Part shown: piece by piece, positions 1,713 through 6,651 of the stretch
Layout: the number at the start of each line of letters is the position of its first letter
Position numbering within the stretch: position 1 is the stretch's first letter
Origin: Nitrospinota bacterium
Lineage (GTDB): Bacteria > Nitrospinota > Nitrospinia > JACRGO01
Direction of reading: 5' to 3'
NCBI GenBank assembly: GCA_016212295.1
Contig: JACRGO010000114.1
Span: forward strand, 1 to 6,651
DNA length: 6,651 nucleotides
Program-made: the position numbers and the translations under genes
Notes under the pieces: model-generated
The model's input: the letters and a program-made list of their open reading frames with translations, nothing else
The model's database searches: none
What the model was told of the DNA's origin: nothing

Positions 1713-2129
1713 TTGAAAGGAGTAAAACTATTCGCGGCTGCATTGATCGCTGCCTTTGGTATTGCGGCGTCTTCGCCTGCTTGGGCCTACGATGGTTCAT
1801 TGCCGGACGACACCATGTACATAGGAGACGTCACCAAGGTGGACGCAAAGAGCAAAACCATGGAAATCAAGACAAGGTTTGAAAAAACCCCAAAGACATT
1901 CAACATCAGCCTTCAACCGGAATGTTACGTCCACACAGCAAAGAGAGGGGAATTCAGCAAATTCGCCGACCTTAAGGCAGGCACCCTGGTTTCCGTTTAT
2001 GGCTGGCAAAAGGACGGTAAGTGGATGGCCAGAAGGATCGCGACCTGGGACCCCAATGATTATCTCATTAAAAGGCTTGAAGAGGACGCTAAGGCCGGGG
2101 TTTATTTTAAATCTGAAAACGTAGAATAA
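1713..2129 (+). CDS. Small secreted protein, possible OB-fold, upstream of NosZ-like gene
   Basis: This 138-residue exported protein is one I do not recognise as a named family. A Sec signal peptide spans residues 1-25 (MKGVK, a hydrophobic core, then an AWA cleavage site before Tyr26). The mature part of about 113 residues has short alternating beta-type stretches (YIGDVTKVDAKSKTMEIKT, FNISL, LKAGTLVSVYGWQKDGKWMA). These resemble the small beta-barrel layout of DUF5666/OB-like periplasmic proteins. One cysteine sits in a C-x-x-H arrangement (Cys71, His74). The start is TTG, fixed by GGAAGGAGGTGA at 1695-1706, six bases upstream. The gene ends 23 bases before the NosZ-like start and probably shares its transcript, which suggests a helper or partner role such as metal handling or assembly. 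That role is inference. Confidence 0.8.
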   Translation: MKGVKLFAAALIAAFGIAASSPAWAYDGSLPDDTMYIGDVTKVDAKSKTMEIKTRFEKTPKTFNISLQPECYVHTAKRGEFSKFADLKAGTLVSVYGWQKDGKWMARRIATWDPNDYLIKRLEEDAKAGVYFKSENVE

Positions 2130-2137
2130 AAAATAAA

Positions 2138-2147
2138 GGGGAGGTGA
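2138..2147 (+). promoter_or_regulatory. Shine-Dalgarno GGGGAGGTGA deciding the TTG start
   Basis: The sequence GGGGAGGTGA ends five bases before TTG at 2153. The GTG at 2144-2146, which would add three residues, lies inside this ribosome binding site and is unlikely to be the start. The neighbouring upstream gene uses the same AGGTGA plus TTG arrangement, which supports the choice. Confidence 0.75.
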
Positions 2148-2152
2148 TATTT

Positions 2153-3967
2153 TTGAAAAAAGTTTTTTTAAGCTTTATAGCAATCTCGGCTTTTATTGCA
2201 GGACTTATCGGCGTTTCCTTCAAAACGGCCAATGCGTATGACGTTCAATTGACCGAGCAAGACAAAAGGGACTGGCAGGTCACGGAAAAAGAGTTAACGG
2301 ATGCTCCCTTGCGTGACTATGCAGTCTTATACGACGCCGGCGGAACCGATGGGGCCATCGGGGTCATTGGTATACCCAGCATGAGGACGTTCAGGCATAT
2401 CCTCTGCGGCGTGGACTTGCACAACTTCCCGTTCAGCGGATCCAACGCAGGCAACAACAACGGCTCGCCTGACGGGAAATATCTCTATGTCAGCGATAAG
2501 GGCGCGGACACGGTGGTTGAAGTGAACCTCCAAACCGGCTTATCGGAAAGGCTCTTTGCCCTGCCAAAACCATTTGGCGTTCACCATAGCGCCGCGCTGA
2601 GCCCGAATGGGAAATATCTGTTCGCCACAGGCGAGTTGACGGGAAAAATGCTGAAACTCCGCCTTAACGACGGGGCCACTACCGTTATTGATATTCCCCC
2701 GGCCCCCAGCGCGCCGGACTATCCCGATACCTCCAAGGACGGGAAATATGTGTTCTCCGGCAACTATTACCACAGCGCGGTAATGGTCTTCAGCCAGGAC
2801 CCTTTTAAATTCATTAAGGAAATTCCAGTGGGAAAAAATCCCCACGGAACGAACGTCCGGCCCGACAACCGGTTCGTGACCACCTGCGACAAGCTTTCAG
2901 CCACCCTTTCCATAATTGACATAAGGAAGTTGAAGGTCGCCAAGGTCATCCCGGTCGGGGCCGGCCCGCTTCACAATCAGCATGACAACCTGGGAAAATA
3001 CGACTACATCAGTTGTTTCGTGTCGGATTCCACTTCCAAGGTGGATCTTACCCGGTTGCAATTAGTGGACGAATTCCCGGTCCATTATAGAGTGGGACAT
3101 AATTCCATCGCCCCGGATAACGCGTTCTACGTCTCTCAGAACAAGTTCTCCACCGGACTTTTCAATCCCACCGGCATGATCTTCCCCGTTAATTTTGAGT
3201 TGCAGGATATAGATGAAACCAGCAAGACCTATGGGAAGACCGTGAAACTCATACCGGTGGATGGAGAGCCACATGAAGGGCGCCAGATTTTCTCCTCCTA
3301 TATACAGACGTGGAACGAGGGACAAGGCGCTGATTTGTTTGAAAAGGGATATGATCTTGGTGATTACCACGTGTCCTTTGACGATCCAAGGTACGGCGGC
3401 AACGCCAAGAAACGGCCTATGATCGAGCCAGTAGGTCTCGCTGGAGGAAAGAGGTATTTTATTCCCAGGGACACCGGAAAGCCCGGCGTTGTTAAAACGG
3501 AAGACGGCGTTTATGAAGTCCGCGTAAAGGGTTTCAGTTACGGCTATGTTCCAAGGTTCATCCATGTTCCCAAGGGCGCCAAGGTACGGGTGATATACAC
3601 CAACATTGATAAGGCGGCCGGTTTGACCAAGAACCCGGATGTTACCATGGGATTCACCGTTTATGGCCATTACGGGCCAAAGACCAGCATAGAAGCTGTC
3701 CGAGGGATGTCCGCCGTGGCTGAGTTTGAAGCCACGTACGCAGGGGAGTACGAATACTACTGCCAGCAATTTTGCGGCCCTCTCCATTTGGAAATGAGAG
3801 GGACCTTCTTTGTTGATCCTCCTAATGGACAGGCATCCCTGGCTGTTGGTGACTACGACAAGGTTTCCGAACAGGAAATCATGTTGGCTCCTGAAGAAAG
3901 GGAGTTCATTGTCGGAGGAAACAAACTGCGCAATACCTTGAAGGAAGGAAGCGAGCCTGTAATTTAA
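2153..3967 (+). CDS. NosZ-family (Sec-type nitrous oxide reductase-like) copper protein with divergent metal ligands
   Basis: Exported 604-residue homologue of nitrous oxide reductase, which reduces N2O to N2 in the periplasm using CuA and CuZ centres. A Sec signal spans residues 1-28 (ANA cleavage site, no twin Arg, as in clade II NosZ). Next is a beta-propeller whose His positions match the classical CuZ set: DLH-N (His90, Asn91), GVH (144), NPHG (231), GPLH (274), GH (316), EPHE (374). A C-terminal cupredoxin (about 450-556) carries CQQFCGPLHLEM (Cys537, Cys541, His545, Met548), the CuA pattern C-x3-C-x3-H-x2-M. Two ligands differ: the second His of the usual HH pair is Asn91, and the upstream CuA His is Met499 (DVTMGF in place of the SHGF type). 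The segment from the second to third His motif is about 60 residues shorter than in Pseudomonas NosZ, and about 48 residues follow the cupredoxin. Family assignment is strong; N2O reductase activity is unproven. Confidence 0.85.
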   Translation: MKKVFLSFIAISAFIAGLIGVSFKTANAYDVQLTEQDKRDWQVTEKELTDAPLRDYAVLYDAGGTDGAIGVIGIPSMRTFRHILCGVDLHNFPFSGSNAGNNNGSPDGKYLYVSDKGADTVVEVNLQTGLSERLFALPKPFGVHHSAALSPNGKYLFATGELTGKMLKLRLNDGATTVIDIPPAPSAPDYPDTSKDGKYVFSGNYYHSAVMVFSQDPFKFIKEIPVGKNPHGTNVRPDNRFVTTCDKLSATLSIIDIRKLKVAKVIPVGAGPLHNQHDNLGKYDYISCFVSDSTSKVDLTRLQLVDEFPVHYRVGHNSIAPDNAFYVSQNKFSTGLFNPTGMIFPVNFELQDIDETSKTYGKTVKLIPVDGEPHEGRQIFSSYIQTWNEGQGADLFEKGYDLGDYHVSFDDPRYGGNAKKRPMIEPVGLAGGKRYFIPRDTGKPGVVKTEDGVYEVRVKGFSYGYVPRFIHVPKGAKVRVIYTNIDKAAGLTKNPDVTMGFTVYGHYGPKTSIEAVRGMSAVAEFEATYAGEYEYYCQQFCGPLHLEMRGTFFVDPPNGQASLAVGDYDKVSEQEIMLAPEEREFIVGGNKLRNTLKEGSEPVI

Positions 3968-4068: not shown

Positions 4069-4563
4069 ATGCTATTTTATTTTATGCTTAAAAAAAATTT
4101 TAGAAAATTTCCAATCTGCCTTTTAATTACATTCCTTACTATATTATGGGGTTGCGCCAAAAAAGAGGAAAAGGCCGCCCAACCGGAAGAGAATCCCCAG
4201 CAAGTAGTGGAAAAGTTTTTTTCCTTTTTAAAAAGCGGGGGGAGGCAGACCCTGGAAGAGGCGCGGAAGCTTACAACGGCAAGCAAAACCGGGGCCGGTT
4301 CAGAGCCTTTCCGGCGCTGGACGGAAAAGTATGATGCGGAAACTGAAATAAAGATTATTGACAGCAGGATTTTGGATCAACCCGGCAAGGACGGGAGCAA
4401 GATAGCAGAGGTAAAAATCGGGTTTAAGGTTCCATCCGCGTTTGGCGGATTTATGGATTCCACCTCCCTCATGCATCTGATCCACGACAAGGAAACCAAT
4501 AAATGGTTGATTGATTTTTGGGCCGAAACCATAGATGAAGAGGGGTTTAAGAAGGGGGGATAA
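4069..4563 (+). CDS. Small lipoprotein, DUF4878-like helper of unknown role
   Basis: This 164-residue predicted lipoprotein has a basic N-terminus (KKNFRK), a hydrophobic stretch at 14-28 and a lipobox-like LWGC with Cys29. Trp at the -2 position is unusual. A charged linker (about 30-42) leads into a small alpha+beta domain starting NPQQVVEKFFSFLKSG and ending in beta-like stretches (KIAEVKIGFKV, KWLIDFWAE). This resembles DUF4878/NTF2-like lipoproteins, but I cannot name the family with certainty. Starts at 4069 and 4084 are both possible, the second giving a more usual signal (MLKKNFRK), and neither has a clear Shine-Dalgarno sequence. It lies after the terminator and 228 bp before cytochrome b, so it may be transcribed separately. 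No catalytic residues are recognisable. Confidence 0.7.
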   Translation: MLFYFMLKKNFRKFPICLLITFLTILWGCAKKEEKAAQPEENPQQVVEKFFSFLKSGGRQTLEEARKLTTASKTGAGSEPFRRWTEKYDAETEIKIIDSRILDQPGKDGSKIAEVKIGFKVPSAFGGFMDSTSLMHLIHDKETNKWLIDFWAETIDEEGFKKGG

Positions 4564-4791: not shown

Positions 4792-5424
4792 ATGAAAAAA
4801 ATAATCGATTGGCTGGAACATAGGACTGGGATTAAATCCAAAATCAGGAAACAGTTTTCCTACCCGGTGCCGCCCTTCGCCAATTTTTGGTTTTGTTTTG
4901 GTGGACTTGCGTTTTTGTGCATAGCGATCCAATTTCTCACCGGATTTTTCATGCTTTTTTATTATTCTCCAAACCCGGCTGAAGCCCAGGACAGCATCAA
5001 GATATTATGCAATGAAGCGTACATGGGGGGCCTGATAAGGAATCTCCACAGGTGGAGTTCAACCTTTGTCCTTTTCTTTTTATTCATTCACACGGTGAAC
5101 GTTATCACCAGGCGGGCCTATCAAAGTCCAAGGGAATTGAACTGGTGGTCTGGAATACTGCTTTACCTGATTGTGTTTATAGCGGTTATTACCGGGATTA
5201 TACTTCCCTGGGATTGGCGAAGTTATTGGGAGTTGGTGATATGGACAGATTGGATCGGGACCATCCCAGCCATGGGAGAGGAACAAAAGGCATGGTTTCT
5301 TGATATGTTTTCCCTGAAAAAAAGTTTTGCGGTCCATATCTGGCTCATTCCAATACTTTTAACTGTTCTTCTCCGGTTCCACTTTAAAATGGTGAAGAAG
5401 CTGGGCGTCAAGGAGCCGTTATGA
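4792..5424 (+). CDS. b6-type cytochrome b subunit of a quinol-oxidising bc complex
   Basis: This 210-residue N-terminal half of cytochrome b (PetB/QcrB type) would bind two b hemes in the membrane and oxidise quinol together with the next protein. Four transmembrane helices lie near 32-58, 83-106, 118-139 and 180-199. The heme ligands are visible as His86/His100 in the second helix (13 residues between) and His182/His197 in the fourth. The 14-residue gap in the second pair is typical of b6 rather than mitochondrial-type cytochrome b. Cys35 in FCFGG matches the b6 Cys that holds the extra covalent heme ci. ILPWDW (137-142) fits the conserved loop after the third helix. The length and MKKIIDWLEHR start fit b6. 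The nearest SD-like AGGAT is weak and about 15 bases upstream. The stop overlaps the next start as ATGA, indicating coupled translation. Confidence 0.93.
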   Translation: MKKIIDWLEHRTGIKSKIRKQFSYPVPPFANFWFCFGGLAFLCIAIQFLTGFFMLFYYSPNPAEAQDSIKILCNEAYMGGLIRNLHRWSSTFVLFFLFIHTVNVITRRAYQSPRELNWWSGILLYLIVFIAVITGIILPWDWRSYWELVIWTDWIGTIPAMGEEQKAWFLDMFSLKKSFAVHIWLIPILLTVLLRFHFKMVKKLGVKEPL

Positions 5425-6149
5425 GTGAAATCATGGAAAAAGAGGAAAAGAAGGAAGGACAAAAGACATGGTGGCCGCACCACGTTTTAAAAGCAGGCGC
5501 TTTTGCAGTGGTGTTTCTGGCCGTTCTTTTTTATCTTGCTGGCGCCTACCAAATTCCGGACGATGCCCCTGATATGATACCGCTTCCGGATGACGGCCAA
5601 TACATTCCAGGGCCGGAGTGGTTTTTTCTTGTGCTTTGGCAGCCTTTTTGGTTTTTTACCGGGATGAAAAAAAAGCTCCTGGTCTGGACGGCCATAGTCC
5701 CGCTCCTTTTCCTGGCGTTCCTTTTTTTTCTCCCCTTTGTCCAGAAAATTCCCTTTCATCGCGTTCCTGGAATAGGCGTCCTTTTTAGAAGAATAAGGGA
5801 AAGGCCAAAGGGTTTTGTAAGAAAGTTTTTCTATGTCTGTCCTGTTCTCCTGGTCAGCGGCTTGTTTCTCCTTGGAATAATAAAAAGCGGCTACCAGGCA
5901 AAATTGTTCGGTTGCGAGTCCTGCCATAATGCCTCCATGGGACCCAGGATGTATATTCCTCCCGCGGATGTGGCGGACTACTACAAGGTTGACCGGGCGC
6001 GCCAGATCAAGGTGGGGAAGTATCGCGCCGGAAAATCCGTGGGCTTGGATGCGCAGGGAAACCAAATATACGATACCGCCGGCACCCAATCATACAAGGA
6101 CTCCAACTGGCAGATGCGCCATATGTACGAACCCACGTTTACGTGGTGA
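5421..6149 (+). CDS. Cytochrome b subunit IV-like protein fused to a C-terminal monoheme cytochrome c domain
   Basis: This 242-residue protein completes the cytochrome b complex. Residues 1-20 are charged. Hydrophobic segments at about 25-43, 88-106 and 137-155 correspond to the three helices of subunit IV. PGPEWFF (63-69) is the Qo-site PEWY motif with Phe for Tyr. After the last helix comes CESCH (165-169), one covalent heme c site, with His169 as proximal ligand. The tail ends in NWQMRHMYEPTF, where Met232, Met235 or His234 could supply the sixth ligand. The heme domain should lie on the outer side of the membrane and pass electrons on to a soluble acceptor. The gene starts with ATG overlapping the cytochrome b stop by 4 bases, behind AGGAG at 5411. 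No Rieske gene is next to it. The tail of about 75 residues is short for a cytochrome c. Confidence 0.92.
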   Translation: MSEIMEKEEKKEGQKTWWPHHVLKAGAFAVVFLAVLFYLAGAYQIPDDAPDMIPLPDDGQYIPGPEWFFLVLWQPFWFFTGMKKKLLVWTAIVPLLFLAFLFFLPFVQKIPFHRVPGIGVLFRRIRERPKGFVRKFFYVCPVLLVSGLFLLGIIKSGYQAKLFGCESCHNASMGPRMYIPPADVADYYKVDRARQIKVGKYRAGKSVGLDAQGNQIYDTAGTQSYKDSNWQMRHMYEPTFTW

Positions 6150-6547: not shown

Positions 6548-6651
6548 TCCCCCTGGCCCCCTTTTCCAAGGGGGAATCAGGCGATGTATGGGAACATACC
6601 GCGATGGACGGCACAACCCATTCCCCCTTAACAAAGGGGGATTAAGGGGGA
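6548..6651. mobile_element. MITE-like element with C5/G5-rich inverted arms, cut by window end
   Basis: The left arm (6548-6577) and the reverse complement of the right arm (6620-6651) share the layout TCCCCC, a short spacer, CCCCC, an 8-base AT-rich loop, GGGGG, AAT, with a 2-base length difference. Each arm also folds on itself through CCCCC and GGGGG. The 42-bp middle contains a small GTATG/CATAC hairpin. There is no coding sequence. The pattern is like dispersed non-autonomous repeats common in environmental bacteria. The right edge may lie outside the window. Confidence 0.7.

Follow-up and report, generated by a model that had tools for sequence, protein, structure and literature searches.

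The analysed window is a stretch of 6,651 nucleotides that makes up a whole contig of a Nitrospinota genome (3.74 Mb, 90.5% complete), and a same-genus relative of the source genome is a Nitrospinia MAG. The following genes and gene features were found in the window.

1713–2129, plus strand: exported protein of the NOV5WD8W family (family F10; NF052405, 203 bits, above the cut-off of 170)
2138–2148, plus strand: strong Shine-Dalgarno sequence GGGGAGGTGAT of the TTG start, read from the sequence
2153–3967, plus strand: gene of a clade III-like (lactonase-type) nitrous-oxide reductase, with a TTG start, 604 aa and a Sec-type signal peptide
2318–3322, plus strand: seven-bladed beta-propeller (CuZ domain), residues ~56–390 (domain search, AlphaFold, VIA-align)
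3485–3820, plus strand: cupredoxin (CuA) domain, residues ~445–556 (domain search and L-NosZ model probing)
4069–4563, plus strand: small lipoprotein (family F7), which is likewise conserved beside clade III genes
4792–5424, plus strand: cytochrome b6-type subunit (family F8; PF00033, 131.9 bits)
5421–6149, plus strand: membrane subunit carrying a single CxxCH haem c motif (family F11) and acting as partner of cytochrome b (locus comparison)

The product of the ORF at 2153–3967 is called the window protein below, and its residues are numbered on the assumption that TTG at 2153 is the start codon. A GTG is found at 2144, but it overlaps the Shine-Dalgarno sequence, and therefore TTG is the likelier start.

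To evaluate the family of the window protein, it was compared with curated models. The best match, covering the full length, was NCBIfam NF052460 (clade III lactonase-type N2O reductase, L-NosZ) with 599.2 bits (E 4.7e-180) against a curated cut-off of 700. The models of clades I and II (TIGR04244 and TIGR04246) gave 120 and 161 bits, below their cut-off of 625. Orthologues of the window protein scored 565–614 bits against NF052460, none of them reaching 700, and other clade III-type proteins, from another phylum, scored 658–779 bits. Since some of the latter lie at 658–696 bits, the cut-off is not a clean border. The identity of the window protein with clade III-type proteins at or near the cut-off was 55–58% where measured. 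Nitrospinota and a second, related phylum, in which the gene is carried by 16 of 24 genomes, contain orthologues with an identity of 71–86%; the 23 different sequences from these two phyla are referred to as the window clade. In the trees this subclade had a support of 100/100 and lay on the clade III side, on a long stem branch (0.9 changes per column). Clade III without it was supported at only 48–60%, and both a sister and a nested placement are compatible with the trees. A profile match of the window clade to clades I/II spanned both domains (hhalign, E 8.8e-45). VIA-align placed NosZ chains among the top matches (Z ~26) with a whole-chain rmsd of ~16 A, which means that the superposition holds for individual domains only; other propellers reach equally high scores. 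The window protein is thus a close relative of the clade III nitrous-oxide reductases, a recently named group whose founding paper is reportedly He et al. 2025, Nature 646:152. No relatives of the window protein were found in scans of viral contigs, and a search for Bacillota, intended to reach Desulfosporosinus, gave no sporulating genome in 80 genomes.

The residues expected around the CuZ cluster were located as follows.

2414–2425, plus strand: D88-L-H90-N91 of blade II, where the second His of D-x-H-H is Asn (joint alignment; invariant in 23 sequences)
2582–2587, plus strand: H144-H145 of blade III, consecutive His pair, proposed seventh-ligand site (alignments and substitution probing)
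2771–2773, plus strand: His207 (NYYHS) in the strand 2–3 loop of blade IV, alternative seventh ligand (alignments, AlphaFold)
2843–2845, plus strand: His231 (NPHG), CuZ ligand position (joint alignment, probing)
2972–2974, plus strand: His274 (GPLH), CuZ ligand position (joint alignment, probing)
3098–3100, plus strand: His316 (GH), CuZ ligand position (joint alignment, probing)
3143–3145, plus strand: Lys331, equivalent of K450 (M. nauticus) next to CuZ (joint alignment, PMC11573801)
3266–3274, plus strand: Glu372-Pro-His374 (EPH), comprising the CuZ ligand position His374 (3272–3274) and the Glu that holds the CuZ-side Lys (joint alignment, probing)

When the sequences were aligned jointly with six NosZ proteins of clades I/II, D88-x-H90-N91-(3)-S95 fell exactly over D-x-H-H-(3)-S (codons of D88, H90 and N91 at 2414–2416, 2420–2422 and 2423–2425), and His144, 231, 274, 316 and 374 lay over the other five CuZ ligands. 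The original prediction that six of the seven CuZ histidines are kept in order and that the second His of D-x-H-H is Asn91 was therefore correct, as were its reading frame, residues and numbering with TTG at 2153. The profile of clade III in hhalign likewise aligned the D-x-H-N motif over D-x-H-H; the profile of the window clade alone had put it in a clade I insert, a placement which both former alignments overrule. D-x-H-N is present in all 23 window-clade sequences, so a sequencing error or an accident of a single genome was rejected. D-x-H-E was found in 16 of 16 clade III-type (L-NosZ) sequences compared, and D-x-H-H is a feature of clades I/II.

In order to see past the fetched sequences, single substitutions in segments of the window protein were scored against the NCBIfam L-NosZ model. 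At position 91, Glu scored 2.3 bits above Asn and 2.8 bits above His, and N91H lost 0.5 bits. The absence of the second His of D-x-H-H is a trait of the whole clade III-like group and not a private change of the window protein.

In known structures, seven His serve as CuZ ligands. According to the L-NosZ model, Ala costs 4.6–4.7 bits at H90, H231, H274, H316 or H374 and 3.9 bits at H144. The replacement of H145 by Ala, Gly or Asn costs 4.1, 4.5 or 3.8 bits, which is on par with the known ligands. Exactly seven of the probed His were strongly required in this model (90, 144, 145, 231, 274, 316 and 374), so the CuZ count of seven His is kept, with an apparent shift of the pair out of blade II and into blade III. 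On blade III, [VI]-H-H was found in the window clade and clade III; in clades I/II there is a His followed by a non-His residue, mostly Gly. K331 and E372, the equivalents of the CuZ-side K450/E488, were invariant in the window clade. Judged from the sequences, the pair H144-H145 very probably takes over the role of the missing blade II His, and we infer that H145 is a copper ligand.

Of the nearby extra histidines that were suggested to compensate (145, 207, 277), H145 is invariant in the 23 window-clade sequences and strongly required, H207 is invariant as well but more weakly required, and His277 was rejected as a replacement ligand, as it is not conserved and its change to Ala costs nothing in the L-NosZ model (the score rises by 0.2). 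It is unlikely, though it is the main alternative, that the seventh ligand is His207, from the loop that replaces the calcium loop of clade I, so that each blade would supply one His and H145 would be structural. His207 also occurs in all clade III-type sequences compared and is absent in clades I/II, and the corresponding blade IV loop carries Ca2+ in M. nauticus NosZ (PMC11573801). However, the wider L-NosZ model charges only 1.4–2.0 bits for changes of His207 (2.0 for Ala), compared with 3.8–4.5 for H145 and 3.9–4.7 for the known ligand positions. AlphaFold was run twice with 17 close relatives and yielded models of poor quality (pLDDT 44.7 and 55.3). Both place H207 in the strand 2–3 loop of blade IV, and by the secondary structure of the first one, H144-H145 stands where the inner strand of blade III starts.

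A six-His cluster, smaller or differently tuned and possibly with Asn91/Glu91 as a weak ligand, that still reduces N2O appears improbable. The invariance of N91 in the subclade and the clade III residue Glu, a possible oxygen ligand, are consistent with it, but Asn and Glu interchange between subclades and H145 is strictly conserved, which suggests that the ligand is not the second member of the blade II pair. The variant copper cluster put forward in the original prediction is thus supported as a variant ligand set, which is group-wide and probably still comprises seven His, with H145 standing in for the second His of D-x-H-H.

Two further sites concern the CuA domain.

3647–3649, plus strand: Met499, aligned with the distal CuA histidine (H583 in P. 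stutzeri, H579 in M. nauticus; joint alignment)
3761–3796, plus strand: CuA loop C537-x3-C541-x3-H545-x2-M548 (joint alignment; invariant)

The equivalent of Met499 was Met in the window clade and in 15 of 15 full-length clade III-type sequences compared. Nevertheless, the L-NosZ model places His 0.9 bit above Met at this position, and hence other clade III members probably retain the distal CuA His. In P. stutzeri and M. nauticus, this His flips between IN and OUT forms (PMC11573801). The earlier account contained neither Met499 nor the membership with clade III.

A comparison of loci revealed a conserved block with the order NOV5WD8W protein, N2O reductase gene, lipoprotein, cytochrome b and CxxCH membrane subunit, to which most window-clade loci add two Vgb-like propellers (F3) and an MFS/spermidine-synthase fusion. 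The NOV5WD8W gene lay upstream in 17 of 17 window-clade loci compared and was absent next to those clade III genes that were read. NOV5WD8W is described as a 'nitrogen cycling' protein, and it is possible that it acts as a maturation or electron partner. In another phylum, clade III genes are likewise accompanied by the families F7, F8 and F11 and, in several loci, by the pair of Vgb-like propellers. This gene neighbourhood supports a putative electron chain from quinol to N2O. No NosD above the cut-off was found in 29 genomes, namely the source genome and 28 others (relatives or clade III genomes); as the source genome is 90.5% complete, this does not prove that NosD is missing from it. ABC ATPase and permease genes were observed near clade III L-NosZ genes (L099:15602-17328 and L100:31-1786) and are perhaps a NosFY-like maturation pair; no such pair was seen adjoining the gene in the window-clade loci read.

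The joint alignment also revealed two kinds of paralogues in the same phylum that are without CuZ ligands. One (L005:1198-4266) is a fusion of 1023 aa, in which a degenerate L-NosZ-like protein (VNN, DPN, CuA cysteines lost) is joined to a long C-terminal part. The others are proteins of ~500 aa (L010:1420-2901, L012:1363-2904 and L013:1417-2901), from which nearly all CuZ histidines are gone; they retain a complete CuA site including the distal His and adjoin a small protein with one CxxCH motif. Because these degenerate paralogues have lost the CuZ ligands, the retention of ligands in the window protein is not passive.

This bears on the proposal that the protein has left N2O reduction and now serves as an electron carrier, a copper store or a reductase for another small molecule. 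The short paralogues demonstrate that such a loss does occur in the phylum, the window protein scores below the L-NosZ cut-off, and the stem branch of its subclade is long. On the other hand, the window protein has kept every other CuZ and CuA residue, its locus has the operon genes of clade III, and the mean column identity among orthologues is 83–87%. We regard this abandonment as quite unlikely. As the main reading, loss of function was rejected, given that the other metal residues are all invariant and that truly degenerate paralogues occur alongside. The corresponding part of the original prediction is left unsupported by the conservation of the other CuZ ligands, Lys331, Glu372, the CuA Cys/Cys/His/Met set and the clade III operon genes, when set against paralogues that lost such residues.

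With a probability of about 0.65, the window protein would work as an exported N2O reductase belonging to a clade III-like lineage, would be fed by membrane cytochromes and would hold its cluster with seven His, the pair of which is on blade III. This preferred reading is built on the directly established sequence, family, conservation and synteny; H145 as a ligand, a four-copper CuZ, N2O as the substrate and the electron route are its inferred parts. Quinol electrons are predicted to pass through the neighbouring cytochrome b and haem c membrane subunits to the CuA site, in which Met replaces the distal His. N2O would then be reduced in the hub of the propeller at a putative CuZ-type cluster, the consecutive pair of which would be H144-H145 rather than one on blade II, where H90-N91 is found. 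When each of the seven CuZ His was replaced in P. stutzeri NosZ, metalation was altered or abolished, completely in 6 cases (PMC11573801). Changes of CuZ ligands are thus not trivially tolerated, which counts against the preferred reading, as do the scores of the window protein and all its orthologues below the L-NosZ cut-off and the negative NosD result in the 29 genomes.

With clade III L-NosZ, the window protein shares full-length homology, the seven strongly required His including the H-H pair of blade III, the CuA Met in the members sampled, and the operon genes F7, F8, F11 and two Vgb-like propellers. It differs from clade III in having Asn where Glu is the commonest form after D-x-H, one extra residue after H-H, a longer insert before the CuA domain, the upstream NOV5WD8W gene and a score below the cut-off. 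Clade I (TAT) NosZ (P. stutzeri, M. nauticus, R. capsulatus) has the same propeller and cupredoxin, six of the seven CuZ His positions, the CuZ-side Lys and Glu and most CuA residues; it differs from the window protein in D-x-H-H, a single blade III His, the Ca2+ loop of blade IV, the distal CuA His, the Tat signal and the nosR/nosD neighbours. Clade II (Sec) NosZ (T. roseum, T. pelagia) is homologous in architecture and has a Sec-type leader like that of the window protein; it shows the same ligand differences as clade I, and its model TIGR04246 matched far below the cut-off. The L005-type fusion and the short paralogues are homologous propeller-cupredoxin proteins as well, but they lost the CuZ ligands (the L005 type the CuA ligands too) that the window protein kept. 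It is conceivable, though doubtful, that Nitrospinota and the neighbouring phylum harbour a distinct N2O-reductase lineage beside the three named clades, with a seven-His CuZ having its pair on blade III, a CuA without the gating His, and no canonical NosD.

No enzyme other than N2O reductase is known to act as a sink of N2O, a strong greenhouse gas, and one fixed set of seven His has so far been regarded as a requirement of CuZ. Natural proteins that carry the pair on a different blade and lack the distal CuA His would readily allow one to test which ligands assembly requires, and whether electron transfer is gated by the His flip. If the preferred reading is true, N2O reduction would be added to Nitrospinota-type genomes that standard nosZ searches miss.

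In addition, repeats were observed towards both ends of the window. A perfect inverted repeat of 35 bp (215–249 and 336–370, 86 nt apart) lies just before a DUF116 gene and is overlapped by an imperfect pair of 33 bp (161–193 and 282–314); together, the repeats at 161–370 look like a small mobile element. Near the contig end, an imperfect inverted repeat CCCCCTT...AAGGGGG was found at 6557–6640, of a type often met as a dispersed repeat.
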